Source of the DNA: Herbiconiux sp. A18JL235
GTDB lineage: Bacteria; Actinomycetota; Actinomycetes; Actinomycetales; Microbacteriaceae
NCBI RefSeq assembly: GCF_040939305.1
Contig: NZ_CP162511.1
Location: forward strand, 2,976,001-3,040,000
DNA: 64,000 nucleotides
Reading direction: 5' to 3'
Shown here piece after piece: positions 5,178 through 64,000 of the stretch. Numbering within the stretch: the stretch's first letter is position 1; each line of letters opens with the position of its first letter. The position numbers and the translations under genes are program-made. The notes beneath the pieces are model-generated. The model saw only the letters and a program-made list of their open reading frames with translations, did not search any database and was not told where the DNA came from.

Positions 5178-6235
5178 GCCGCGGGACGGCGGCTCGGCTC
5201 GCCCTTCCCGGGCTGCTCGTGGCGGGTGGCGCGGCCGCGCTCGCCTTCGGCCTCCATCTGGCGTTCCCCGTGGTGCCGCAGCTCACGGCGGCGGTGGGGC
5301 TCGGCATGGTGGCCGGGCAGGTCCCGGCCGTGCAGCGCCTCCTCGATGGCGCGCTGAAGCCCGGCATCGCAGTGGCGGCGAGACGGCTGCTGCGCATCGG
5401 CATCGTGCTGCTCGGGCTGAAACTCAGCCTCGTCGACATCGCCGGTCTCGGCGGGGAGACCATCGTCGTCATCGTGCTGGTCGTCACCATCACCTTCCTC
5501 GCCACGCTGTGGTTCGGAAAGCTGCTCGGCCTCCCCGGCACCCAGCCGATCCTCGTCGCGGCCGGCTTCTCCATCTGCGGCGCCTCGGCGGTCGGGGCGA
5601 TGAGCGCGGTCACCCGCAGCAAAGACGACGACACCGCCACGCCCATCGCGCTTGTCACCCTCTGCGGCACGCTGGCGATCTTCGTGCTGCCGGTACTGCG
5701 CATCCCGCTCGGGCTCTCGACCGAAGACTTCGGCGTATGGGTGGGCCTCAGCGTGCACGACGTCGGTCAGGTCGTCGCCACCGCGCAGATCGCGGGGCCG
5801 GCGGCGCTGGCCGCGGCGGTCGTGGTGAAACTCACCCGGGTGCTGACCCTCGCACCGATGGTGGCGGTGGTGGGTCTGGTGGAGCGGCGGCGAGACGCCC
5901 GCAACGCGGCGCTGCCCGCGGGCCACCCCGACATCGTCGACCGCCCGGCCACGAAGCGGCCGCCCATCGTGCCCCTGTTCATCGTGGGCTTCATCCTCGC
6001 CATGCTGGCCCGTACCGTCGTCGTGCCCCTCCTCGACGACACCGCCTCCGGCGCCGTGCTCGAGGTCGCCGACGTGGTGCAGACCATCCTGTTCTCGCTG
6101 GCGCTGTTCGCGCTGGGATCGAACATCCGCTTCCGGGCCCTGGCCCGCACCGGGTGGCGGGCTCTCATCGTGGGGCTCGCATCGTGGGCCCTGATCGCCG
6201 CCCTGTCGCTGGGGGCGGTGTATCTGCTCGCGTGA
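5168..6235 (+). CDS. YeiH-family putative sulfate/anion exporter (UPF0324)
   Basis: 355-residue membrane protein with about ten hydrophobic segments. The signatures VAAGFSICGASAVGAMSA and VGLSVHDVGQVVATA are typical of the YeiH/UPF0324 family; IRFRALARTGWRALIVG closes the protein. E. coli YeiH is described only as a putative transporter, and sulfonate/sulfate export is the usual suggestion. The GTG at 5168 is the likely start: it gives the expected family length and lies inside the pmt stop region, so translation is coupled. A much longer open frame through pmt in this reading frame is not real. Confidence 0.87.
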   Translation: MALSRGTAARLALPGLLVAGGAAALAFGLHLAFPVVPQLTAAVGLGMVAGQVPAVQRLLDGALKPGIAVAARRLLRIGIVLLGLKLSLVDIAGLGGETIVVIVLVVTITFLATLWFGKLLGLPGTQPILVAAGFSICGASAVGAMSAVTRSKDDDTATPIALVTLCGTLAIFVLPVLRIPLGLSTEDFGVWVGLSVHDVGQVVATAQIAGPAALAAAVVVKLTRVLTLAPMVAVVGLVERRRDARNAALPAGHPDIVDRPATKRPPIVPLFIVGFILAMLARTVVVPLLDDTASGAVLEVADVVQTILFSLALFALGSNIRFRALARTGWRALIVGLASWALIAALSLGAVYLLA

Positions 6236-6560
6236 GCTGCGGGCGGCGCGCGGCGGCGGCCCGGTGAGCTGCGGGGGCGGCCCGGTGAGCGGCGCGCGGC
6301 GCGCGGCGGCGGCCCGGTGAGCGGCGGGCGACGGCCGCCGCGGGGGCGGCGCGGCGGCGACCACGTGAGCGGCGGGCGACGGCCGCCGCGGGGGCGGCGC
6401 GGCGGCGACCACGTGGGCGGTGGGCGACGGGCGACGGCGACCACGTGGGCGGTGGCCGCCGCGGGGGCGGTGGGTGGCGGGCGGCGGCGACCACGCGGGC
6501 GGCGCGCGGCAGCCACGGTGAGCGGTGGCGGTGGCGGCGGCGTGGGCTGCGACGCGTGAG
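6236..6560. repeat. GC-rich tandem repeat region with a 48-bp unit
   Basis: Between the convergent YeiH and Gdx genes. Bases 6317-6364 and 6365-6412 are two identical 48-bp units (gtgagcggcgggcgacgg...gaccac). Degenerate partial units follow at 6413-6444 and from 6445 on, and shorter ggtgagc-type pieces precede from 6260. It is almost pure G+C with strand-biased G. The open frames across it are low-complexity and not genes. It may serve as a transcription barrier or be a variable-number repeat. Confidence 0.75.
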
Positions 6561-6595
6561 CCGCATCGAGCATCCGCTCGCTGTCGCCCACCGGC

Positions 6596-6910
6596 TCAGT
6601 GCGTGAGCTTCAAGCCGATCACGCAGGCGACGATGCCGAGCACGAGCAGCGCGCGCACGAGCGAGAAGCCCTCGCCGCCGAAGGTCATGCCGTAGATGAC
6701 GGTCAGCGAGGCCCCGATGCCGACCCACACCGCGTAGCCGGTGCCGACGGGGATGGTGCGGAGCGCATAGGCGAGCCCGCCCATCGAAGCGAGCAGTCCC
6801 ACGCCGAAGACGACGGTCGGCCACAGCTTCGTGAAGCCCTGCGACTTGCCGAGCGCGGTGGCCCAGACGGCCTCGAGAACACCGGATGCGATGAGCACGA
6901 TCCATGACAT
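6596..6910 (-). CDS. gdx: Guanidinium exporter, small multidrug resistance family (Gdx/SugE)
   Basis: 104 residues, four transmembrane helices, the standard SMR size. The essential Glu13 is in SGVLEAVWATALGKS, and GTGYAVWVGIG marks the Gdx (SugE) branch rather than the EmrE drug-exporter branch. Gdx proteins are antiparallel dimers that exchange protons for guanidinium. The start ATG has AGGGAG nine bases upstream. A guanidine-III riboswitch lies directly in front, which independently supports guanidinium as substrate. Confidence 0.93.
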   Translation of the reverse strand: MSWIVLIASGVLEAVWATALGKSQGFTKLWPTVVFGVGLLASMGGLAYALRTIPVGTGYAVWVGIGASLTVIYGMTFGGEGFSLVRALLVLGIVACVIGLKLTH

Positions 6911-6930
6911 GACAGTCCACTCCCTGGATG

Positions 6931-6970
6931 GTCAGTCTTGTCGCGTGCCGGGTACTGCGCCCTCGTCCGG
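6931..6970 (-). ncRNA. Guanidine-III riboswitch (ykkC-III)
   Basis: Read on the minus strand the leader contains CCGGACGAGG, then GCGC, then AGTACCCGG, and after a short spacer GACAAGACTG. These are the conserved blocks, in the same order and spacing, of the ~40-nt guanidine-III pseudoknot aptamer. The aptamer ends about 20 bases before the gdx ATG with the ribosome site immediately after it, so guanidine binding probably controls access to the AGGGAG. The identification is from remembered consensus, not a covariance-model hit. Confidence 0.85.
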
Positions 6971-7089
6971 AGGCCGCTCGGCGGCCTTGCCTCCAGTGTC
7001 GCACGGGAGGCTGCTCAGCGCCTGTGCACGGAGGAGCGGACGGGCGGATGCGCGGGGTGCGGGAGCAGATGCGCGTCGGTGGCACCGCC

Positions 7090-7095
7090 TAGGCT
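7090..7095 (+). promoter_or_regulatory. -10 box of a probable leaderless promoter (SARP-type regulator)
   Basis: TAGGCT followed by six bases and GTG at 7102; no ribosome site precedes the start. Same layout as at pmt. Confidence 0.5.
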
Positions 7096-7101
7096 TTGTG
7101 C

Positions 7102-10100
7102 GTGAGCGATGCCAGGCACTCGAGCGCCACCGGGCACACGGGCCCCGTGCGGGTGACCGTGCTCGGGCCCGTCGCGGTGCTCGCCGCCGCCGGCGAACGG
7201 CTGGAGCCGGCCGGCGTGCGAGCGAGAACGCTCGTCGCGGCGCTCGCCCTCGCGGCTCCCCGACCGCTGGCCCCGACCCAGCTCATCGACGAGGTCTGGG
7301 GCGACTCCCCACCGGGAGGCGCGAAGGCAGCGCTGCAGACCCTGGTGTCGCGCCTGCGCGCGGCGGTCGGCGACGAGGTCGTCGAGTCGCTGCCCTCCGG
7401 CTACCGACTCGGCGTCGAGCCCGACGAGATCGACCTCGGTGCCGCCGAGCTCGGCCTCGATCGAGCGCGGGCAGCGCTCGACGACGGCGACGACGCCCGA
7501 GCGCACGCACTCGCACGCGACGCGCTCACACTGTGGAGCGGAGAGCCCGGTGCCGATCTCGGCGAGACCGCGGTGGCCGATGCCCTCCGTCACCGCGCGG
7601 CGGTCGCCTCGCACGGTCTCACGATGGCCCAGGCGACGGCGGCTGTGCGACTCGGGCGAGCCCACGAGGCGGAGGAGCTCGCCGAGCGGCTGACCGTGCT
7701 CGCGCCCTTCGATGACAGCGCCCGGCTGCTGCTGATGCAGGCGCTCGACGCGCTCGGCAGGCCGACCGAGGCGCTCGAGGCGTTCGCCGACTTCCGGGCA
7801 GCTGTGCAGGAGGCTTTCGGGACGAGCCCGTCCCCTGAACTCCAGGCCTTGAACCTCGAGCTGCTCGGGCGGGAGGGCGAGGCGCCGGCGTTCGCATCGT
7901 CGCCGGCCCCGGTGCCTCGCCCGGCGGGAAGATCGGCGACGGCGACGGCGACGGGGCCGGAGGCGCCTGAAGCACCTGCCCTCATCTCCTCTCGTCTCAC
8001 GCTCTCCGCCCCCGCCGCGATCGTGCGGGGCGTGCGGGCGGCACCCAACGAGCTCATCGGCCGCGACGACGACCTCGTCGCGCTCGAACAGCTCCTTCAC
8101 CGCTCCCGCGTCATCACCGTGCTCGGGCCCGGCGGACTCGGCAAGACCCGCATCGTGCACGAGCTCGCCGCGCGTGCGGCGGCGTCCGGAGCGTTCGAGT
8201 CGATCGTCGTCGTCGAACTCGCCGGTGTACGGTCGGGAGACGACGTGGTGTTCGCGCTCGCTGCGGCCCTCGGCATCAGAGAGGTGGCGACGAGCCGACG
8301 CATCGGAGACCAGGTGGTGCGGGCCGATCTGCGCACGCGCATCCTGAACCGGCTCGGCGAACGGCGCACCCTGCTCGTCGTCGACAACTGCGAGCACCTC
8401 GTCGAGGCGGCCGCCGCGTGGTGCGCCGAGCTCACGGGCGAGCTGCCCGAGCTGACCGTGCTCACCACGAGCCGCACACCGCTCGCCATCTCGAGCGAGC
8501 GGGTCTACGCGCTGCCGCCGCTCGGGCGTGCCGCGGGCGGGGCGGGCGGCGCGGGGGCAGCGGGCGGGGCGGGTGCAGCCGCCGCAGCCGCCGCGGGGGC
8601 GACAGCGGGTGCAGCGGGCGGTGCGGATGCGAGAGCGGGCGGTGCGGGTGAAGCGGGGAGTGCGGCGGCAGCAGCATCCGTCACCTCTGTCTCCTCTGTC
8701 TCCTCAGTCGCCCCGCTCGGCTCCCTCCCGCCGGGCTCCCCCGCCCAGCTCGACGACCCCGCCGTACAGCTCTTCGTCGACCGGGCCACGGCCGCCCGCC
8801 CCGACGCGCTCCTCCCCCTCGATACCGTGGCGCGGCTGTGCTCTCGCCTGGACGGCCTGCCGTTGGCCATCGAGCTGGCGGCGGCGCGCATCCGTTCGCT
8901 GTCGATCGACGAGATCGAGCGCAGGCTGTCGAACCGCTTCGTGCTGCTGGCGGGCGGCGATCGTTCCGCGCCCGAGCGGCACCGCACGCTGTTCGCGGTG
9001 ATCGAGTGGAGCTGGAACCTGCTCGGCCGCGACGAGCAGCGCGCCCTCGCGAGTCTCTCCGAGTTCGCCGACGGTTTCGGCCTCGAAGGCGCGGCTGCGG
9101 TGCTGGGCGTCGACGAGCTCGCCGCGCTCGACCTTCTCGACGCGCTGGTATCGCAGTCGCTCGTATCGATGGTCGAGGGGCCGGTCGGCATGCGGTACCG
9201 CATGCTCGAGACGGTGCGCGAGTTCGGACAGCAGCAGCTCGAGCGTGAAGGCCGGCGAGACGCGGTGCGCGACGGCCTGTTCGGCTGGGCCGACGGGCTG
9301 GCGCTCCGCCTGCTGCCCGACACCGACGGTGCTCGGCAGGTCGAGACCTTCGCGGCGATCGCCGTCGAGGAGGACAACCTCATCGACCTCCTTCGCCGCG
9401 CCATCGACGCCGGGCGCGACGAGGTCGTCGCGTCGGTGTTCGCGCTACTCGGCTACTATTGGTCGCTGCGAAGCGCGCACAGTGAGGTGCTGGCGTTCAG
9501 CCGGCCCGTCTACGAGGTGCTGCAGGGGTACAAGCCCGAGGCGTCGCGGCGCGACCTGCTCACGACCGGGCTCGTGGTGGTCGTGGCGACGAACCTGCTG
9601 ATCGATCTGCGCTTCGCGGTTCGGCCGCTGTCGCAGCTGAGGCGTCTGGTACGCGAGCATCCGCCGGCCGACGAGCGCCTGGCGACGATGGCGGGCGTGC
9701 TGCTGGCGTCGGGAGACGAGAACCTGCTGCGCTCGCGCGTCGAGGTGGCCATGGGCTCGTCGCACCGGCCCACCGCGCTGCTCGGCACGATCATGGGCAG
9801 CGTCTGGGCCGAGAACGAGGGGCGCCGGGCGGATGCGGTGGCCTACGCCCGTGCTGCCGCCCGCCTCGCCGAGTCGCTCGACGACACCTGGGGCGGGGCG
9901 ATGGCCGCGCAGATGCTCGGCGCCCTGCACAGCCAGAGCAACGAGCCGACGGATGCGCTGCGCTGGGCCGAGCAGGCCCGTCTCGGTCTCGCACGGCTCG
10001 GCGCCGCCGACGACCTGCGGCAGATCGAGTGGGTGATCGCCAGCAACCAGATCGCCACGGGCGAGTTCGAGGCGGCGCGAGAAGTGTTCGAGCGGCTCGT

Positions 10101-12011: not shown

Positions 12012-13084
<1,073 letters not shown>

Positions 13085-53286: not shown

Positions 53287-53588
53287 GGATGCGGCCAGCG
53301 CGGCGTTAAGAAAGTTATGGCTGCGATCAACCGCGTCGACCGGCGCAGCCAAGCGTTCGATCGCCGACCGGCAACGGATTCTGGAACACCGCCCACATCG
53401 ACGCCGAGTACGACCTCATGCTCGCCGTCGCGTTCGACGAGATCGACTCCATCGACGAGATCGCAGCCTGGCTGAGTGCGCGCTTCAGAGCACCGGACCG
53501 TGAGCGACCGAAGCTACACTCGACACACGCAGTGACGAGTGCCCGTGCGCTGCGAGTTCGATCGCCGAGAAGCGCCGGGAGCAGCTCG
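53287..53588 (+). other. 302-base gap with a possible gene remnant
   Basis: In the frame of the helicase gene, before its start, translation gives GNGFWNTAHIDAEYDLMLAV and FDEIDSIDEIAAWLSARF (about 53370-53490), which reads like real protein sequence but has no upstream start or ribosome site. It may be the worn 3' end of a lost gene. No promoter of quality was seen; GGGAG before 53589 is the helicase ribosome site. Confidence 0.4.
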
Positions 53589-56500
53589 ATGGAGTCCGAA
53601 ATCACCCCTGAAGACCTGGCCAGCGCGCCCGCGAGCGCCCCCGAAAGGGTAACTCTCCTCCTCACCACCGCCGGTGTCGTCAGCTACGCCCAGGCGAACG
53701 CCCGCCTCTCCGCCCTCGAGTCCGTCACCATCACGAACCCGGGCCCGATGCTGCGCGCCGCCGCCCTCGCCATCGAGGCGACGGATGCGTTCGGCTCCCT
53801 CGGCACTCCCACCACCACCCTCATCGACCTCGCCGAGCATGCGACAGTCACCCTCTCCGACCTCACCCTCTACCTCGACCCGGCGACCATGCTCGCCGTC
53901 GACGAACAGCGCCCCGGGCGCATCACCGCTCGCCTGACTGACACCGACGGCACCACACGAGCCGAGGCATCCGCCGACGTCGACGTGCTCGCCGCCTCGC
54001 AGTGGCGCACCAACCCGGTGCAGCTCGGCATGGAGCTGCTGCCCGCCTACGTGCAGCCCAACGCCGCCGCCATCCAGCCCCTCCTCCACGAGGCGGGCGA
54101 ACTCCTCGAGCAGCGCACCGGCGACCGCAGCATGACGGGCTACCAGCTCGAAGACCCGAAACGGGTGGATGCGACGGTCGAGGCGATCTACGAGGCCATG
54201 CGTTCCCGACGCATCCGCTACGCCGAACCGCCTGCGAGCTGGTCGAGCACCGGCCAGAAGGTGCGCACCCCCGCCGAAGTGCTCGAGGGCCAGGTCGGCA
54301 CCTGCCTCGACACCACGGTCGTGCTCGCCGCAGCACTCGAACAGGCGGGCATCAACTCGACCCTGTGGATCTTCGACGGCCACGCCTTCCTCGGCTACTG
54401 GCGTCAGAACAGCGAGCTCGGCTCCGTGGTCGAGTTCGAACCCGGCGACCTCGTCAACCGCACGGCGCTCGGTCACATCGTGCTGATCGAGACCACGGCC
54501 GTCACCGACTCCCGCAACGGCGACTTCGACGAAGCGAAGAGGGCAGCACGAGCTCGCATCGAGGGCGCGCCGAGCACGTTCATCGGCGCGATCGACGTCG
54601 GAGCCGCCCGCTCGGCGAGTATCTTCCCGCTGCCGTCGCGGTCGGTGGAGCCCGACGGCACCGTCGTCGTCACCGAGTACCGCGTCGCCGCGCGAGTAGC
54701 CCTGCGCGACGGCCGGGACGCCGCACCGGCCAACCCCGACGGCGCCGGCGCCGGCACGAAACGAACCGCGCCCCCGCGGGTCGCCCAGTGGAAGAACTCC
54801 CTCCTCGACCTCAGCCTCCGCAACCGCCTGATCAACTTCACCGACCGCGCCGGTTACTCCCTCGCCGTGCCGAGCGCCTCCCTCGCCCTCCTCGAAGACC
54901 AGATCAACTCGGGCATCAACCTCTCGCTCCGCCCGTCGAACGCGGTCAGCGCCGTGGATCGCGAGCGCAAGATCCAGTTCGGCCGCGACCTCCCCGACGA
55001 CACGCGCGCCCAGCTGCTCGCCGACCGCAAGGAAGCGTACGTCGACATCAGCGAGGAGTCGTACGCCACCAAACTCCGCTACCTCGCCTACAAGGCGAAG
55101 ACGATCGTGGAGGAGACCGGCGCGAACAACCTCTACCTCGCGTTCGGGATGCTGCACTGGTCGTTCAACGACCGCGAACTCCGCTCGCCCCTGATCCTCA
55201 TCCCCGTCAACCTGACCACGGCGAATCGCGGGTCGCTCTACCGCCTCACCCTCGACGAGTCCGGCGCATCCACCCCCAACTACTGTCTGCTCGAGAAGCT
55301 GTCGCAGGCCTTCGACCTGACGATTCCGGGTCTGGCCGAGCCGGCTCAGGATGGCGCGGGCATCGACCTGCAGGCGGCCTTCACCGCCGTGCGGCAGGCG
55401 ATGCTGGATGCGCATCTCCCGTTCCGGGTCGAGGACTCGGTGAATCTGGGCATCCTGCAGTTCGCGAAGTTCCGGCTCTGGAAAGACCTCGACGAGAACT
55501 GGGAGTCGCTCGCCGGCAACCCGCTCGTGAAGCACCTCATCGAGACGCCGACGCTGCCGTTCGTCGACCCGGTGCCGCCGGCGACGGACGAGAACGCCGT
55601 CGATCTCGACGCGTTGAGCGCCCAGTGCCCGGTGCCCGCCGACTCCTCGCAGCTCGAGGCGGTGGCCGAAGCCGCGCATGGCCGCACCTTCGTGCTCGAG
55701 GGCCCTCCCGGCACGGGCAAGTCGCAGACCATCACGAACCTGCTCGCGAAGGCCCTCGCCGACGGCAAGCGCGTGCTCTTCGTGGCCGAGAAGCGTGCCG
55801 CCCTGTCGGTGGTGCAGCGCCGGCTCGACGAGATCGGCCTCGGCCCGTTCTCGCTCGACCTCCACGACAAGGGTGCGCGCCCCGCCGCGGTGCGCGCGCA
55901 GATCAAGGCGGCTCTCGAACACCGGGTCACGATGGATGGCGCCGCCCTCGCCACCAACCTCGAGATCGCGAACTCCAACCGCCGCACCCTCTCGCGCTAC
56001 GCCGAGCGCCTGCACGAGAAGAACTCGGCCGGCCTCTCCCTCTATTCGGCGCGCACGAGCGAGCTGTCGGCGGATGCGTTCGTGCCCGCGATGCCTGTCC
56101 CCTCGGGCCTCGTGTCGGGCGGCTCGGCCGACGACTTCGAGGCGATCCGGGAGGCGCTCCGCGACCTCCCCGAAACGGCCGACTATGTGCGCCCGCAGCG
56201 GGTGAACCCGTGGGGTTTCGTGATCGACCGACCGGATGCGCCCGTCGACTCGGCCGCCGCCCACACCGCCACGCAGAACCTCGACCGAGCGATCGCCGCA
56301 GCCCTCGACGCCGGCGTGGCCTTCGACACCATCGTCGCCGCCCACGACCCCGAGCAGCTCGCCGACTGGTCGCGCATCGACGGCTACCAGCGTGAGCCGC
56401 TGGCCATCATCGACGCGGCCCGCGACACGACGACACCCAGCGCCTGGAACACGGCGGCGCAAGCGGTCGTCGACCAGCTGACCGCTCTGACGCAGTCACC

Positions 56501-59500
56501 TCCAGCCTGGTTGCAGCAGGCCCAGCCCGAGGCTGTCGCCCTCGACATCGCGGGCATTCACGCCGAGGCGATCGCCGCCGACCAGTCCAGTTTCTTCGGC
56601 CGTAAGAAGCGCCGCCGTGCGGTCGCGGCGCGGCTCGGGCCGGCCTTGCGCTCCCCCGGCGCGGTCGACCTCAAGCAGCTCTCGACCCTCACCGGCCAGA
56701 TCGCCGAGTCGGCCGGTTACCTCCAGTCCCTGCGCACTCACGTGCAGCAACTCGCCGGCGTGCGCATCGGCGCTGACTGGAACCCGTTCCGTCCGGCCGA
56801 CGCGGACTCCGTCACGGCGCAGATCGCCTGGCTCCGCTGGGTCGGCACGACCATCGGCGTCCGCCCCGGTGAGGATCCGGATGCGTTCACGCGCGAGTGC
56901 CGCCGCCTCTACGAGACGACGCCGCCGGACGCATCCAGAGCTGCCGCGATCGCAGCGCTGGCAACAGCATGGTCGGCCCTCATCACGGCGGCCCACACCA
57001 CAGCAAGCGATCTCGGCGCGTGGGCCTCCGGCCCGGCGGACAGGACGGGCCACGTTGCCTTGACCGATCAGACCGCCCCGACCAGCCAGTCTCCTGAGCC
57101 CCAGCGCCAAACCTTCTTCGCCGCTTGGGCCGCCACCCGCGCCGGCCGCAACCTCGACTCCCCCACGCCCGTCGCCCTCGACCGCTGGCTGGCCTTCACG
57201 CGCGCACTCGAGCCGCTCCGCCGCCGAGGTATGGCCGAGGCGGTGAAGGCGCTCGAGTGCGGCGAGCTCAGTGCGGATGACGCGCGTCTGTCGTTCGAAA
57301 AGGGTCTCGCCGCGGCATCCGTCGACGAACGCGAACAGAGCACCGGCCTCGCCGACTTCGACCCGACGGCCCACAACCGCTCGATCGAGCGCTTCACCAC
57401 GAGTGCGCTGGCGATCCGCGCCGAACTGCCGAACGCCATCCCGGCGCACGTACTGGCGCTGCGCCGGTTCGACTCGTCAGCACCGGCCGGCCAGGTGGGC
57501 CTCCTGCGCCGCCAGCTCGAACGGCAGCGGGGCGGGATGAGCGTGCGCACCCTGCTCGACACCTTCGGCGAGCTGATCACGCAGATCCTGCCGATCACGC
57601 TCATGTCGCCCGAGTCGGTGGCGAGGTTCTTCCCCGCGAAGCCGGGCCTGTTCGATGTGGTCGTGTTCGATGAGGCCTCGCAGATCCGGGTGGCGGATGC
57701 GGTGGGTGCGATGGGCCGCGCCGGTTCGGTCGTGGTGGTCGGTGACAGCAAGCAGATGCCGCCCTCCAGTTTCGGCGAGACGGCGCTCGACGCCGACGAC
57801 GAGGTCGAGCTGTCGGCCGAGGTGGTGCAAGACGAGGAGTCGATCCTCTCGGAGTGCGTGCAGTCGCAGGTGCCGAGCAAGTGGTTGTCGTGGCACTACC
57901 GCAGTCAGGATGAGTCGCTCATCTCGTTCAGCAACCACCACTACTACGAGAGCCGGCTGTCGTCGTTCCCGGCGCCGTTGCGTGCGGCCGAGCGGTCGTC
58001 GTTGGATGGCTACGGTGTCTCGCTGGTGCGGGTGAACGGCACCTTCAACCGTGCGGGCAAGGGCAAGGAGCTGCGCACGAACCGCATCGAGGCGGAGGCG
58101 ATCGTGGCCGAGATCCGTCGCCGTTTCGACGCGGCCGTGGCTCTGGCCGGGCCGGATGTTCCCCTCGCCGATTTCGAGGCCCCATCCCTCGGCGTGGTCA
58201 CGTTCAACGCCCAGCAGCGCGACTTCATCGAGAACCTGCTGCGCGACACGGGTGACGAGCGCATCCTGAACGCCCTCGACCACGACAGCGAGGGCTTGTT
58301 CGTGAAGAACCTCGAGAACGTGCAGGGCGACGAGCGCGACGCGATCCTGTTCTCGATCGCCTTCAGCGTGAACGAGAAGGGCTTCCTCCCCCTGAACTTC
58401 GGCCCCCTGCAGCGCGCCGGCGGCGAGCGCCGTCTGAACGTGGCGGTCACTCGAGCCCGCCGCCAGGTCCTGTTGTTCGCAAGTTTCGACCCGTCGGAGC
58501 TGCGTGCCGAGCAGACGAGCTCCATCGGCGTGAAACACCTGAAGTCCTACCTCGAGATGGCGGCCGGCGGCTCCGACGCCCTCGAGGCCGACCCCCGCCG
58601 CACAGCGATCTTCGACCGCCACCGAGACGACATCGCCGCAGAACTCCGGATGCGCGGACTCGCGGTGAAGACGGACGTCGGCCTTTCCGACTTCCGCGTC
58701 GACCTGAGCATCGCCCCCGCGGACGCGCCCGACCGCCCGGTGTTGGCGGTGCTGCTCGACGGCGACTCCTGGAAGTCTCGCCGCACGGTCGCCGACCGCG
58801 ACAGCCTCCCCACCGAGGTCCTGAAGAACCTGATGCGCTGGCCCGCAGTCGAGCGCGTCTGGCTCCCGGAGTGGTTGCACGCCCGTGAGGCGGTCCTCGA
58901 CCGCCTCGAACTGGCGATCGCCGACGTCCAGGCGGCCGCCGCCAACACCGAGCAACTCGCCCGAGTCGACTCGCTGGTCGAGCAGGCCCTCGAAGACGAC
59001 GCGGAGATCGAGAGCCCCACTTCGTCGACCACCGCAGCCGCTGTCGACGTCTACGAAACCGAGGGCGAATCGCCAAGCGACCTCACGCCAACGAACCCGC
59101 CGGGCCTCTTCCTGAAGCTCGGCGCCACGTCTCCCACCTCCCCCTCCACCACCGTCGACCTCATCGAGCCATACACCCCATGGACGCCCCGCCGCGTCGG
59201 CTCGACCGCAGTCCTCGACGCCCTCCCTCGCCAAGACGCCGCCCGAGCAGTCGAGGCAGTCATCCGCGAGATCGTGGCAACCGAGGGCCCCGTCCATCTG
59301 GTGCGTCTCGCGAAGCTCGTGGCAGCCGCGTTCGACCTGAATAAGGTCGCGCAGTCCCGAGCAACGGCCATTCTCCACTTCGTCCCCGCGGAAATGAAGG
59401 CCCGCTCAACCGAGCCCTTCGCTTGGCCAACCGAGCTCGATCCGTCGACCTGGCGGCGGGCTCGCGCGACGCAGCAGGGCGACGTCCGCGCACTGGATCA

Positions 59501-59723
59501 GGTCCCTCTAGTGGAGATCGCGAACGCGATGTCGATCGTCTCCGAGGCGTCGGCAGGTCTGGCAGAGCCCGACCTCAAGCGCGAGGCCCTGTCGATCTTC
59601 GGCGGCAAGCGAATGACCGACGCGATCAGCGCTCGTCTCGATGCGGGCCTCACGTGGGGCCTCGAAAACGCCCGCTTGGAGCGCACAACCCTCGGCATCA
59701 TCCAGCCGATCAACCCGAGCTGA
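53589..59723 (+). CDS. DUF4011-helicase-Vsr-DUF3320 protein (Hhe-like antiphage candidate)
   Basis: 2,044 residues. Order: a transglutaminase/cysteine-protease-like region with Cys ~238 (GTCLDTTVV) and His ~264 (GHAFLGYW); DUF4011 from ~399 (WKNSLLDLSLRNRLINF); an SF1 helicase with Walker A GPPGTGKS ~704, Walker B FDEASQIRVADA ~1360, GDSKQMPPS ~1384, QGDERDAI ~1577 and AVTRAR ~1617; a Vsr/restriction-endonuclease-like domain ~1670-1777 (VLLDGDSWKSRRTVADRD, WPAVERVWLPEWL); and DUF3320 ~1865-1970. Single-gene proteins of this order are reported as the antiphage system Hhe. GGGAG precedes ATG 53589. Codon and hexamer use match the chromosome, so it is not a recent arrival. Confidence 0.88.
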   Translation: MESEITPEDLASAPASAPERVTLLLTTAGVVSYAQANARLSALESVTITNPGPMLRAAALAIEATDAFGSLGTPTTTLIDLAEHATVTLSDLTLYLDPATMLAVDEQRPGRITARLTDTDGTTRAEASADVDVLAASQWRTNPVQLGMELLPAYVQPNAAAIQPLLHEAGELLEQRTGDRSMTGYQLEDPKRVDATVEAIYEAMRSRRIRYAEPPASWSSTGQKVRTPAEVLEGQVGTCLDTTVVLAAALEQAGINSTLWIFDGHAFLGYWRQNSELGSVVEFEPGDLVNRTALGHIVLIETTAVTDSRNGDFDEAKRAARARIEGAPSTFIGAIDVGAARSASIFPLPSRSVEPDGTVVVTEYRVAARVALRDGRDAAPANPDGAGAGTKRTAPPRVAQWKNSLLDLSLRNRLINFTDRAGYSLAVPSASLALLEDQINSGINLSLRPSNAVSAVDRERKIQFGRDLPDDTRAQLLADRKEAYVDISEESYATKLRYLAYKAKTIVEETGANNLYLAFGMLHWSFNDRELRSPLILIPVNLTTANRGSLYRLTLDESGASTPNYCLLEKLSQAFDLTIPGLAEPAQDGAGIDLQAAFTAVRQAMLDAHLPFRVEDSVNLGILQFAKFRLWKDLDENWESLAGNPLVKHLIETPTLPFVDPVPPATDENAVDLDALSAQCPVPADSSQLEAVAEAAHGRTFVLEGPPGTGKSQTITNLLAKALADGKRVLFVAEKRAALSVVQRRLDEIGLGPFSLDLHDKGARPAAVRAQIKAALEHRVTMDGAALATNLEIANSNRRTLSRYAERLHEKNSAGLSLYSARTSELSADAFVPAMPVPSGLVSGGSADDFEAIREALRDLPETADYVRPQRVNPWGFVIDRPDAPVDSAAAHTATQNLDRAIAAALDAGVAFDTIVAAHDPEQLADWSRIDGYQREPLAIIDAARDTTTPSAWNTAAQAVVDQLTALTQSPPAWLQQAQPEAVALDIAGIHAEAIAADQSSFFGRKKRRRAVAARLGPALRSPGAVDLKQLSTLTGQIAESAGYLQSLRTHVQQLAGVRIGADWNPFRPADADSVTAQIAWLRWVGTTIGVRPGEDPDAFTRECRRLYETTPPDASRAAAIAALATAWSALITAAHTTASDLGAWASGPADRTGHVALTDQTAPTSQSPEPQRQTFFAAWAATRAGRNLDSPTPVALDRWLAFTRALEPLRRRGMAEAVKALECGELSADDARLSFEKGLAAASVDEREQSTGLADFDPTAHNRSIERFTTSALAIRAELPNAIPAHVLALRRFDSSAPAGQVGLLRRQLERQRGGMSVRTLLDTFGELITQILPITLMSPESVARFFPAKPGLFDVVVFDEASQIRVADAVGAMGRAGSVVVVGDSKQMPPSSFGETALDADDEVELSAEVVQDEESILSECVQSQVPSKWLSWHYRSQDESLISFSNHHYYESRLSSFPAPLRAAERSSLDGYGVSLVRVNGTFNRAGKGKELRTNRIEAEAIVAEIRRRFDAAVALAGPDVPLADFEAPSLGVVTFNAQQRDFIENLLRDTGDERILNALDHDSEGLFVKNLENVQGDERDAILFSIAFSVNEKGFLPLNFGPLQRAGGERRLNVAVTRARRQVLLFASFDPSELRAEQTSSIGVKHLKSYLEMAAGGSDALEADPRRTAIFDRHRDDIAAELRMRGLAVKTDVGLSDFRVDLSIAPADAPDRPVLAVLLDGDSWKSRRTVADRDSLPTEVLKNLMRWPAVERVWLPEWLHAREAVLDRLELAIADVQAAAANTEQLARVDSLVEQALEDDAEIESPTSSTTAAAVDVYETEGESPSDLTPTNPPGLFLKLGATSPTSPSTTVDLIEPYTPWTPRRVGSTAVLDALPRQDAARAVEAVIREIVATEGPVHLVRLAKLVAAAFDLNKVAQSRATAILHFVPAEMKARSTEPFAWPTELDPSTWRRARATQQGDVRALDQVPLVEIANAMSIVSEASAGLAEPDLKREALSIFGGKRMTDAISARLDAGLTWGLENARLERTTLGIIQPINPS

Positions 59724-61914: not shown

Positions 61915-62057
61915 TTCCTCACCAAACGCTCCCCGAAGCTGGTCCCATCTCACCCATTTGGAGGCCAAGAATCGCTCGGATCCGGTGCGCACAATCTTCA
62001 ACCCGTTACTCTTCATTCCGAAAATGCCACCTTCGTCGAGATGTCGGGCCCGCACCC

Positions 62058-62094: not shown

Positions 62095-63414
62095 ATGCCG
62101 GGAGGCAAGAAGCTCAGCCGTAGCGAATTGATCGGTGACGCCGGCATAGCTCTCATCCACGGCAGAGTTGCCGAGATGGGACACGCGTGGCGCGCTCAGA
62201 ACCTCGATGCCGGTATCGATGGCAGCATCGAACTGCGTGACCCGGCTACGGGCGAGATGAGTAACCAGCACGTCTTGGTTCAAAGCAAGGCGAGCAACAA
62301 CCCGTTCGCTGGGGAGACCAATGATCGGTTCCATTACATCTGCGACGAGCGCGACCTCGATTACTGGATGAAGGCGTCTCAGCCGGTGCTTCTGGTCTGT
62401 TCACATCCGGAACTCGGTGAGGCCTGGTGGGTGCACATCCAGAGCTACTTTGCCGAACCAGCGCGGCGCGCCGATCGACGTGTTGACTTCACTAAATCCA
62501 CGATGCGACTCGCCGGCGATATTTCGGAACACCTCTTCGCGATCGCCGATCCGGAAGGCCGCGCCCACACTCCGGTGCCCGTGTTAAAGACTGAGAAACT
62601 GACCTCGAACTTGGTCAGCGTGCTTACACCACGCGTTGCGCTCTCGTATGCAACGACAGCGCGAAAGCCCGGTGACGTCTACCGCGCCCAGCGCCCCACG
62701 GAGCTGCCTCGTCGTCACGACTTCGCTGTGGCTAACGGGCGAATTTGGACATGGTCGCAAGCCGACGGCACAGCTCTAGAAGCCGCAACTCAAGGTTCCC
62801 CCGAGGCTCACGACATCGATTTTCTGGCAGGCGACGGCGATTCCGGGGAGAGATTAGTCGTACAGCTACTCAGCGGAGCGCTGCGAGACGATCTCCGGGA
62901 AGACTGCGACATGGACCTCAACCGACGGATTCTGTACTTCCGAGCGCCTGAAGACCTCAGCATGCGAAAGTGGCACACGGGAGGATCACACTCACGGACG
63001 GTTTTTAAGGGGTACCCGAGCAAGAAGGACCCTTCAAGAATGAGCTATTACCGACACGCCGCCCTCAGCTGGCGTTTCCTACGCGCCGACGACTATTGGT
63101 TCTGTGCGCTCTTGCCCGACTACTACTTCAGCTGGGACGGCCGACATGAGTCCAACTTCGCAGCGAGCCTCCTCACCAAGATGAAGCAGATGGATCGTCA
63201 TGCGGCGGTCCGTCAAGAAACGCTGATGTGGGCGTCGATTCTTCGCCGCGAGGGCAACTTGATCGAGACTCCCCGCTCACGCATCCTCGAGTTCGGCGAG
63301 CTTCAGTCCTTCGTCATCGACCGCGGCATCGACGACAGCGCCTGGAAGCGCCCGGTGGAGCCGGCGGTAAACAGTGGAGACACGGAACTCGACCTCTTCG
63401 GTGATTCCGCGTGA
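62095..63414 (+). CDS. DREN(DUF4365)-APAZ nuclease of a short-Argonaute (SPARDA-type) system
   Basis: 439 residues. N-terminal DUF4365/DREN nuclease (~1-150): SRSELIGDAGIALIHGRVAEMG, then the PD-(D/E)xK core with Asp/Glu in DAGIDGSIEL and Gln-x-Lys in HVLVQSKAS, followed by DYWMKASQPVLLV. The remaining ~250 residues, with no other motif, take the place of the APAZ domain that binds short pAgos. In SPARDA the pAgo-guide complex detects invader nucleic acid and unleashes this nuclease to kill or arrest the cell. ATG 62095 has GGGGAGG seven bases upstream. Two TTA codons (62584, 62854) and lower GC suggest transfer. GTGA overlap with the pAgo gene. Confidence 0.82.
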   Translation: MPGGKKLSRSELIGDAGIALIHGRVAEMGHAWRAQNLDAGIDGSIELRDPATGEMSNQHVLVQSKASNNPFAGETNDRFHYICDERDLDYWMKASQPVLLVCSHPELGEAWWVHIQSYFAEPARRADRRVDFTKSTMRLAGDISEHLFAIADPEGRAHTPVPVLKTEKLTSNLVSVLTPRVALSYATTARKPGDVYRAQRPTELPRRHDFAVANGRIWTWSQADGTALEAATQGSPEAHDIDFLAGDGDSGERLVVQLLSGALRDDLREDCDMDLNRRILYFRAPEDLSMRKWHTGGSHSRTVFKGYPSKKDPSRMSYYRHAALSWRFLRADDYWFCALLPDYYFSWDGRHESNFAASLLTKMKQMDRHAAVRQETLMWASILRREGNLIETPRSRILEFGELQSFVIDRGIDDSAWKRPVEPAVNSGDTELDLFGDSA

Positions 63415-64000
63415 AGCTCGCATTCATCGATGAGCCCGATCTTGAGTTCGCGAACGGAAGCCGCCACACGGATCCACGGCACGGTGTCACGTTCTATGGG
63501 CCAGCGGATCTCAACAGTTCTGGATCACGCACGATCCGCGTAGGCATCGTTGGCACCAAGGAAGCGATCGATGGAGTGAAGCGTTGGCTGGACAGCTGCC
63601 GCACCCCGATAGCCGCGAAGCGCAGCCATTTGACAGGACTCTTCGTAGCCTTTCCAGGGTTCGCAACGAACGCCGGGTTTCACTCGACGATCGTATGGGA
63701 CTCGCGGCTCGAGCGCACCATATCCGCCAGCGAACTGCGAAAACTCGACGGCATGAACCCTCTGAGGGCTATCGAACAAGCTGTCGAGCTCTACGATTCC
63801 GAGCTGTCCGCGCTCAACGAGGAGCCGGGCTGCGACGTCGTCATTGTCTGTCGACCTGACTCCCTGCCCGAGCAAGTCTCGACCATCGGCAACTCGGACA
63901 AGCCATGGCAGGACCCGAAGGTTGTTTCCGTCGGAGCTGACTTCCGAGCACTTCTCAAGGCTCGATCACTCAAGACGTCACGCCCAATACAGATCCTGAG
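63411..64000 (+). CDS. Short prokaryotic Argonaute (MID-PIWI), N-terminal part, cut by window end
   Basis: 196 codons seen, frame open at the edge. The start MKLAFIDEPDLEFANG...HTDPRHGVTFYGP follows the conserved opening of short pAgos (xxEPxLxFAxG...DxRxGLxxFGP), then VGIVGTKEAIDGVKRWLD, FPGF, and the MID-type strand CDVVIVCRPDSLPEQV. Length and catalytic state of PIWI cannot be judged here; short pAgos are usually ~450-500 residues and inactive. GTG 63411 overlaps the nuclease stop (GTGA), the expected operon order of nuclease-APAZ then pAgo. Confidence 0.82.
   Translation, partial: MKLAFIDEPDLEFANGSRHTDPRHGVTFYGPADLNSSGSRTIRVGIVGTKEAIDGVKRWLDSCRTPIAAKRSHLTGLFVAFPGFATNAGFHSTIVWDSRLERTISASELRKLDGMNPLRAIEQAVELYDSELSALNEEPGCDVVIVCRPDSLPEQVSTIGNSDKPWQDPKVVSVGADFRALLKARSLKTSRPIQIL

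Follow-up and report, generated by a model that had tools for sequence, protein, structure and literature searches.

A complete actinobacterial SPARDA operon and a putative sliding-clamp-binding peptide at the C-terminus of its effector family

Two nuclease-bearing short prokaryotic Argonaute (pAgo) systems are the closest described counterparts of the operon analysed here. TmuRE-Ago from Thermocrispum municipale, also an actinobacterium, couples RNA-guided DNA recognition to nonspecific DNA degradation (PMC10810196), and for NbaSPARDA from Novosphingopyxis baekryungensis a mechanism, a filament and anti-phage and anti-plasmid assays have been reported (PMC12205087; PDB 9jsb and others). SPARTA, which pairs a TIR-APAZ protein with a short pAgo, has the APAZ-plus-pAgo logic in common with them but acts as an NADase, not a nuclease. 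We examined a window of 64,000 nucleotides from Herbiconiux sp. A18JL235 (contig NZ_CP162511.1, positions 2,976,001 to 3,040,000; G000:C1:2976001-3040000 in our numbering), at the right edge of which an initial annotation, made from the sequence alone, had placed a complete SPARDA operon. The pair is very probably just that, a DREN(DUF4365)-APAZ effector and a short pAgo predicted to form a heterodimer with RNA-guided collateral DNase activity. It is a further actinobacterial example of a known system type. Many effectors of this family also carry a C-terminal peptide by which they may dock on the replication sliding clamp.

The window pair has the same two-gene layout and the same nuclease and APAZ domains as TmuRE-Ago, and its pAgo is 62% identical to P0174, a protein named Thermocrispum municipale and taken to be TmuAgo by name, not by accession; activity has been demonstrated for the Tmu system only. 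With NbaSPARDA it has in common the domains, the catalytic D/Q/K residues and the R/K/K pocket for the 5'-phosphate and Mg, whereas most assembly contacts, the first-base pocket and the effector tail differ. The features of the locus are as follows.

62095..63414, plus strand: DREN(DUF4365)-APAZ effector gene, 439 amino acids (PADLOC PDLC02398, E=1e-127; Pfam DUF4365, E=1.5e-22; 9jsb_D, E=2.1e-35; AGGGGAGG)
62140..62502, plus strand: DREN PD-(D/E)XK nuclease domain, from the DUF4365 match to residues 34-154 of the 457-residue frame; predicted catalytic D42, Q63 and K65
62521..63345, plus strand: APAZ domain, from the REase-PNTD1-PNTD2 profile and the effectors of PDB 9jsb, 9qbp and 9qbq; limits approximate, set by eye from the alignments
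63346..63411, plus strand: variable C-terminal tail, 22 residues after Trp417 (alignment of 42 homologues)
63385..63399, plus strand: terminal peptide ELDLF, residues 431-435; degenerate beta-clamp-binding-like motif, from its position and family-wide motif statistics
63411..64000, plus strand: 5' part of the short pAgo gene (MID-PIWI; pAgo_I, E=4.3e-170; 9qbl_B, E=3e-94)

Both predicted open reading frames (ORFs) were present, and both are open at full length. The pAgo start lies inside a GTGA, where the ORF from 63411 overlaps the end of the effector gene by 4 bases. In L002, the continuous contig stretch that reaches past the window edge, the pAgo gene, which had been described as running off the window, closes at window-equivalent 64844 (L002:3411-4844, window-equivalent 63411-64844; 477 amino acids). 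The longest effector ORF begins at 62041 (457 amino acids); the start at 62095 is favoured because of the lengths of close relatives (436-448 amino acids in 29 of the first 30 homologues listed), the point at which the profile match begins and the presence of AGGGGAGG upstream of the ATG at 62095.

Profile searches identified the effector as a nuclease-APAZ fusion. It matched PADLOC Aga_REase-PNTD1-PNTD2 (the E=1e-127 above), Pfam DUF4365 and, over residues 23-442 of the 457-residue ORF, the solved DREN-APAZ protein of 9jsb; 9qbp (E=1.7e-34) and 9qbq (E=1.5e-29) were also matched over most of its length. The C-terminal extension proposed earlier is thus APAZ by both the PADLOC profile and the alignment to 9jsb. 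D41, Q60 and K62 are catalytic in NbaSPARDA (PMC12205087); they align to D60/Q81/K83 of the 457-residue ORF, that is, D42/Q63/K65 of the 439-residue protein, and none of these three varies across 42 aligned sequences (41 chosen from 120 listed homologues, plus the window's effector). The strings IDGSIEL and VQSK, from which a DUF4365-like nuclease had been proposed, hold these positions. Close relatives among the matches listed carry the names of Microbacterium rhizosphaerae and Gryllotalpicola protaetiae. A SPARTA or SPARSA identity was rejected, the nuclease part being DUF4365 and the top profile REase-APAZ.

Some architectural variants were seen along the way. Two actinobacterial DREN-APAZ proteins (L044:2949-4439 and L004:8511-9998) have long basic C-terminal extensions, not an acidic tail. 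On a Phaeobacter plasmid (L069:861-2195), the pAgo is preceded by DUF4365 and then a hypothetical protein, each in an ORF of its own, and on a Pararoseomonas plasmid (L052:1788-2504) a 238-residue protein of APAZ-like appearance, with no annotated nuclease, precedes the pAgo; in both, the effector is possibly split into separate proteins.

The second gene matched PADLOC pAgo_I over residues 1-477. Its best solved relatives were 9qbl (3e-94), 9qbp (7.1e-93) and 9jsb (2.4e-88), at 319.7, 315.1 and 300.2 bits, all with DUF4365/DREN partners. The next was 9om4 (4.3e-74, 253.2 bits), an entry that also holds an HNH endonuclease, followed by 8ifk (1.5e-46) and others, all at 162.4 bits or less. By these scores the pAgo is nearer to SPARDA pAgos than to SPARTA pAgos, 8ifk being presumably SPARTA. 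The initial annotation had warned that the gene could be missed, and a plain Pfam scan could indeed fail, as the Pfam Piwi match stayed under its cut-off (23.2 vs 28.9 bits). With both genes intact and matching SPARDA over nearly their full length, the annotation of a complete actinobacterial operon held; none of the three observations that it had itself named as contrary (no APAZ match, an early stop after 64000, no MID/PIWI likeness) was made.

The pocket for the 5' end of the guide is kept (NbaSPARDA R183/K187/K240 correspond to R179/K183/K233 here), as are the contacts to U2 (R221, Q224, N232 and L233 to R214, Q217, N225 and L226). The first-base pocket differs, with W159 replaced by S157, W201 by R197, and N181 in a gap, which is in line with a different choice of first nucleotide. 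NbaSPARDA prefers A as the first guide base (PMC12205087), and TmuRE-Ago prefers 5'-OH guides and requires a 5'-U (PMC10810196). By analogy, because of the 62% identity to the Thermocrispum pAgo, 5'-OH RNA starting with U would be the likeliest guide here. A SPARDA PIWI domain would be catalytically inactive; at the position where active pAgos carry a GxD-type motif, the residues here are GVAF.

By analogy with the two described systems, the DREN-APAZ protein and the short pAgo would form a heterodimer, with a small guide RNA bound in the MID pocket of the pAgo. Invader DNA that pairs with this guide would trigger assembly, bring DREN domains together and lead to collateral DNA cleavage, and the infected or plasmid-bearing cell would die or become dormant. 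Against a straightforward transfer of this scheme stand the assembly contacts described for NbaSPARDA, compared here under an uncertain loop alignment: one of six PIWI-PIWI contacts is identical and two are conservative, none of seven MID-PIWI/MID-MID contacts is identical and one is conservative, one of three guide-bound Ago-Ago dimer contacts is retained, one of seven DREN tetramer contacts is identical and one conservative, and none of three residues on the MID side of the MID-DREN contact is retained. Only one of the guide contacts S447/N451/R459 is kept. An Nba-like assembly is thus an assumption here, as most contact residues differ and the loops align uncertainly.

We then considered the end of the effector. 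After the last conserved Trp (W417), no column of the alignment of 42 is conserved at 90% or more until L434, just before the end, which is conserved at that level. The beta-clamp-binding motif is defined as Qφx[LM][FL] or Qφx[LM]x[FL]; it is C-terminal in some proteins, and its flanks are mostly negatively charged (PMC11139829). Many SPARDA effector tails are acidic (by eye) and end in comparable peptides. Rhizobiales-type effectors finish at the very C-terminus in QLELL, QLELF, QHELF, QIEFDL or QRELDL, actinobacterial ones have QMALDF, QLALDF or QMSLF a few residues before it, and other tails include QPVLDLF in the window effector's own clade, QVGLL in Beijerinckia and a verrucomicrobial QDDLMF. 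In the window's ELDLF, the aliphatic position 2, Leu at position 4 and Phe at position 5 fit the motif, and Glu431 occupies the place of the required Gln. Four of the five nearest homologues (P0002-P0006) have the Gln, in QPVLDLF or QPELDLF; P0005 is without it.

Two expressions were scored. The strict form is the published definition with φ (phi) read as A/V/L/I/M, and the relaxed form, set after the tails had been seen, places no restriction on position 2 and also accepts Phe at position 4 and Ile at the final position. The sample of 209 effector sequences consisted of the best 120 of 204 matches, all 73 of a second search and 16 from loci, both searches having scored about 8000 candidates only. 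An automatic tail filter dropped 11 rows, L004 and L044 among them, leaving 198 tails in 55 clusters; 12 truncated or frameshifted rows were then dropped by hand, leaving 186 tails in 52 clusters. Among the 186, L053 repeats P0241 and L043 repeats P0009, repeats that clustering removes. The kept tails comprised 26 strict, 49 relaxed, 18 xLxLF without Gln, 68 with an LF-type end only and 25 with none of these, Ile at motif position 4 also being allowed in these class counts.

The motif was enriched at the effector end. In the last 30 residues of the 65%-identity clusters (n=55), the strict form occurred in 6 against 0.42 expected (maximum of 3 in 2000 shuffles) and the relaxed form in 22 against 2.0 expected (maximum of 7 in 2000 shuffles). 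With 45% clusters the relaxed form was found in 7 of 16 against 0.64 expected, a count reached by 0 of 2000 shuffles, and the strict form in 1 of 16, reached by 272 of 2000 and thus not enriched. Body windows gave about 3% relaxed matches. Compared with 350 background ORF tails, in which a few effectors may remain because only five end strings were used to remove them, the relaxed form was found in 21 of 52 clusters vs 5 of 350 in the last 12 residues and in 22 of 52 vs 10 of 350 in the last 30, and the strict form in 6 of 52 vs 2 of 350 in the last 30.

Related proteins lacked it. The relaxed motif was detected in none of 120 pAgo tails and in none of 21 other APAZ effectors (10 TIR, 7 SMEK, 1 APAZ half, 2 archaeal and 1 SIR2), as compared with 5 of 9 DREN effectors of the same plasmid collection (Fisher p=0.0009); both sets are small and hand-picked from match lists, and not all 21 controls are independent (L062/L063 and L068/L110 are nearly alike). 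Two controls, L005 and L047, came from other collections, and their assignment as SMEK and TIR, respectively, was made by eye. A PCNA box in place of the clamp motif in archaeal partners was considered, and the two archaeal tails (L065, L070) gave it no support. Apart from a few useful loci, a contig scan with single-sequence patterns for named relatives yielded mostly distant ones, many of them with fused ORFs of about 1000 residues and, in our judgement, unsuitable as tail controls. Clamp-like QLLLW, QLQLL and QLDLF occurred in open frames at two of three Y-family polymerase loci of the own genome, these loci being uninformative as a positive control. Taken together, the comparisons of sequences indicate that the terminal peptide is a real feature of the SPARDA effector family.

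We give a probability of about 0.5 to the reading that this peptide binds the beta sliding clamp and tethers the pAgo-nuclease to clamps, focusing surveillance and collateral cutting where plasmids and phages replicate, so that SPARDA effectors as a family would couple immunity to invader replication. Besides the enrichment and the negative controls, the published definition, the C-terminal placing and the mostly negative flanks agree with it. DNA polymerases Pol II, Pol IV and Pol III alpha bind the clamp through a similar Q-hydrophobic-x-L-F/L C-terminal peptide in acidic surroundings, although these are replication and repair proteins (PMC11139829). Within the group P0241-P0283, almost every row that has the Gln carries the motif as its very last residues. 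On a FastTree phylogeny of 83 representatives, penta- and hexapeptide forms interchange with four changes, as expected if one clamp pocket takes both.

Several observations weigh against clamp binding. Many tails lack the Gln form, as the class counts given above indicate, and the presence of the Gln motif flips 16 times on the same tree. The strict form is unenriched in the 45% clusters, and the relaxed pattern was chosen after viewing the tails. None of the visible tails of the three solved effectors matched the motif expression by eye: that of 9jsb, visible to residue 439 of 442, is AQGEGLFS, that of 9qbq ends in AQDLFEEGGVG, and that of 9qbp, visible to residue 466 of 467, is SRDLFDEGGA. 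Replacing Gln with Glu, the residue of the window effector, greatly lowers clamp affinity in a consensus model peptide (PMC11139829); clamp tethering is therefore weaker as a reading for the window's own effector, which bears this weakened form, than for the family. A full-text literature search by titles and term counts, in which key SPARDA literature was incompletely covered, found no published link of an Argonaute or APAZ protein to the clamp and no clamp-binding test of any APAZ effector; 'clamp' and 'tail' occur nowhere in the main text of the Cell Research NbaSPARDA paper.

Somewhat unlikely, in our view, is that the tail serves instead as a regulatory plug, intramolecular or bound to the pAgo, which keeps the nucleic-acid channel closed before target DNA arrives and is anchored by its LF end. 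The acidic character of many SPARDA tails would suit such a role, as would the C-terminal APAZ helix alphaN of SPARTA, which stands in the way of target DNA and is displaced upon activation (PMC11156904). Yet the 10 TIR-APAZ control tails are acidic and have no such peptide, which also separates SPARTA from the window system, and deletion of residues 418-452 of Maribacter SPARTA, reported jointly with that of 171-200, barely affects NADase activity (PMC10474274). Nor would a plug obviously need a Gln with interchangeable penta- and hexapeptide spacing.

It is unlikely that the terminal peptide is a degenerate leftover, or hydrophobic merely by chance, and binds no partner, in which case the operon would be simply SPARDA. 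The frequent absence of Gln and the degenerate ELDLF of the window would agree with this, but two findings would not: the motif is commoner than in shuffles, body windows, background tails and the other APAZ effectors, and L434 is conserved at 90% or more beyond a linker that is not. Decay or inactivity of the operon is highly improbable: its distribution within the family is patchy, but the frames are open at full length, the catalytic and pocket residues are kept, and the closest relatives among the matches listed are 77% (effector) and 88% (pAgo) identical.

A sliding-clamp tether would be a concrete, testable answer to how short Argonautes find invader DNA while sparing the chromosome, and a new idea of where this immunity works. 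If true, clamp docking would account for how the complex reaches single-stranded target DNA and why it responds to plasmids and phages in active replication. It would also distinguish SPARDA from SPARTA and SMEK-type systems, in whose sampled tails the peptide is missing. The operon by itself, a complete SPARDA of an actinobacterium located at a probable defence hotspot, is ordinary.

The distribution and composition of the operon support its horizontal acquisition. GC content is 0.60 in both genes vs 0.708 in window positions 1-60000, and the pAgo is rare: counting the own genome, it was found in 2 of 398 genomes of the family and 5 of 396 of the phylum, and the family search listed 10 further genomes of the genus, all without it. 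TTA accounts for 2 of 41 Leu codons in the DREN-APAZ gene and 1 of 48 in the pAgo gene. The initial annotation had spoken of recent acquisition: the horizontal origin stood, and 'recent' is a presumption. A phage origin was rejected, as the phage collection gave no pAgo match and viral contigs gave no confirmed effector relative. Short pAgo systems on three plasmids (L050, L052, L069) lie near type IV secretion or conjugation genes, an arrangement that would suit plasmid-against-plasmid exclusion.

The operon lies in low-GC DNA, in which GC falls from about 0.70 to 0.57-0.64 between window position ~60000 and L002 position ~12000, at what is probably a defence hotspot. Downstream is a split type IIG/Eco57I-like restriction-modification cluster (window-equivalent 65241-70039), consisting of methyltransferase pieces in overlapping ORFs (L002:5241-5900 and 5881-7479) followed by a T5orf172/ResIII helicase (L002:7472-10039); PADLOC model PDLC03626 matches two of its three ORFs. 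Upstream, to the left of the low-GC island, window 53418-59723 encodes a 2101-residue DUF4011/AAA_11/AAA_12/MTES_1575 protein with a weak DUF3320 match, which is the PADLOC candidate PDC-S37, also Hhe. This helicase gene was rejected as part of the operon on its GC of 0.694 and third-position GC (GC3) of 0.89. Its DNA was matched in 13 of 16 same-genus genomes (any match, own included). In 7 of the genus other than the own the matches were long, at 82-94% identity, which also spoke against membership, as no pAgo was found in the 10 others listed.

In the same-genus genome G788, a single contig carries matches to both flanks of the island, on the same strand and about 32 kb from each other; the match to the right flank covers 480 bases at 82% identity. 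Among the ORFs of the intervening stretch (10 scanned of 22 picked, each of at least 180 residues) were matches to MzaC, MzaD, a C5 methylase and AbiU/AIPR. Because the G788 flanks enclose other defence genes, this comparison suggests that the site exchanges defence cargo. At the matching site, G788 also encodes a 1175-residue protein beside two AAA ATPases of 768 and 455 residues (L103:2739-10429). The 1175-residue protein had no Pfam match at E<=1e-5 and no PADLOC match at E<=1e-10, and the three genes are possibly an undescribed defence system. To the right of the island in Herbiconiux sp. A18JL235, an element of ~110 bp (L002 about 12897-13014) recurs at many sites in several genomes of the genus, frequently matching both strands, and is probably a dispersed inverted-repeat element.

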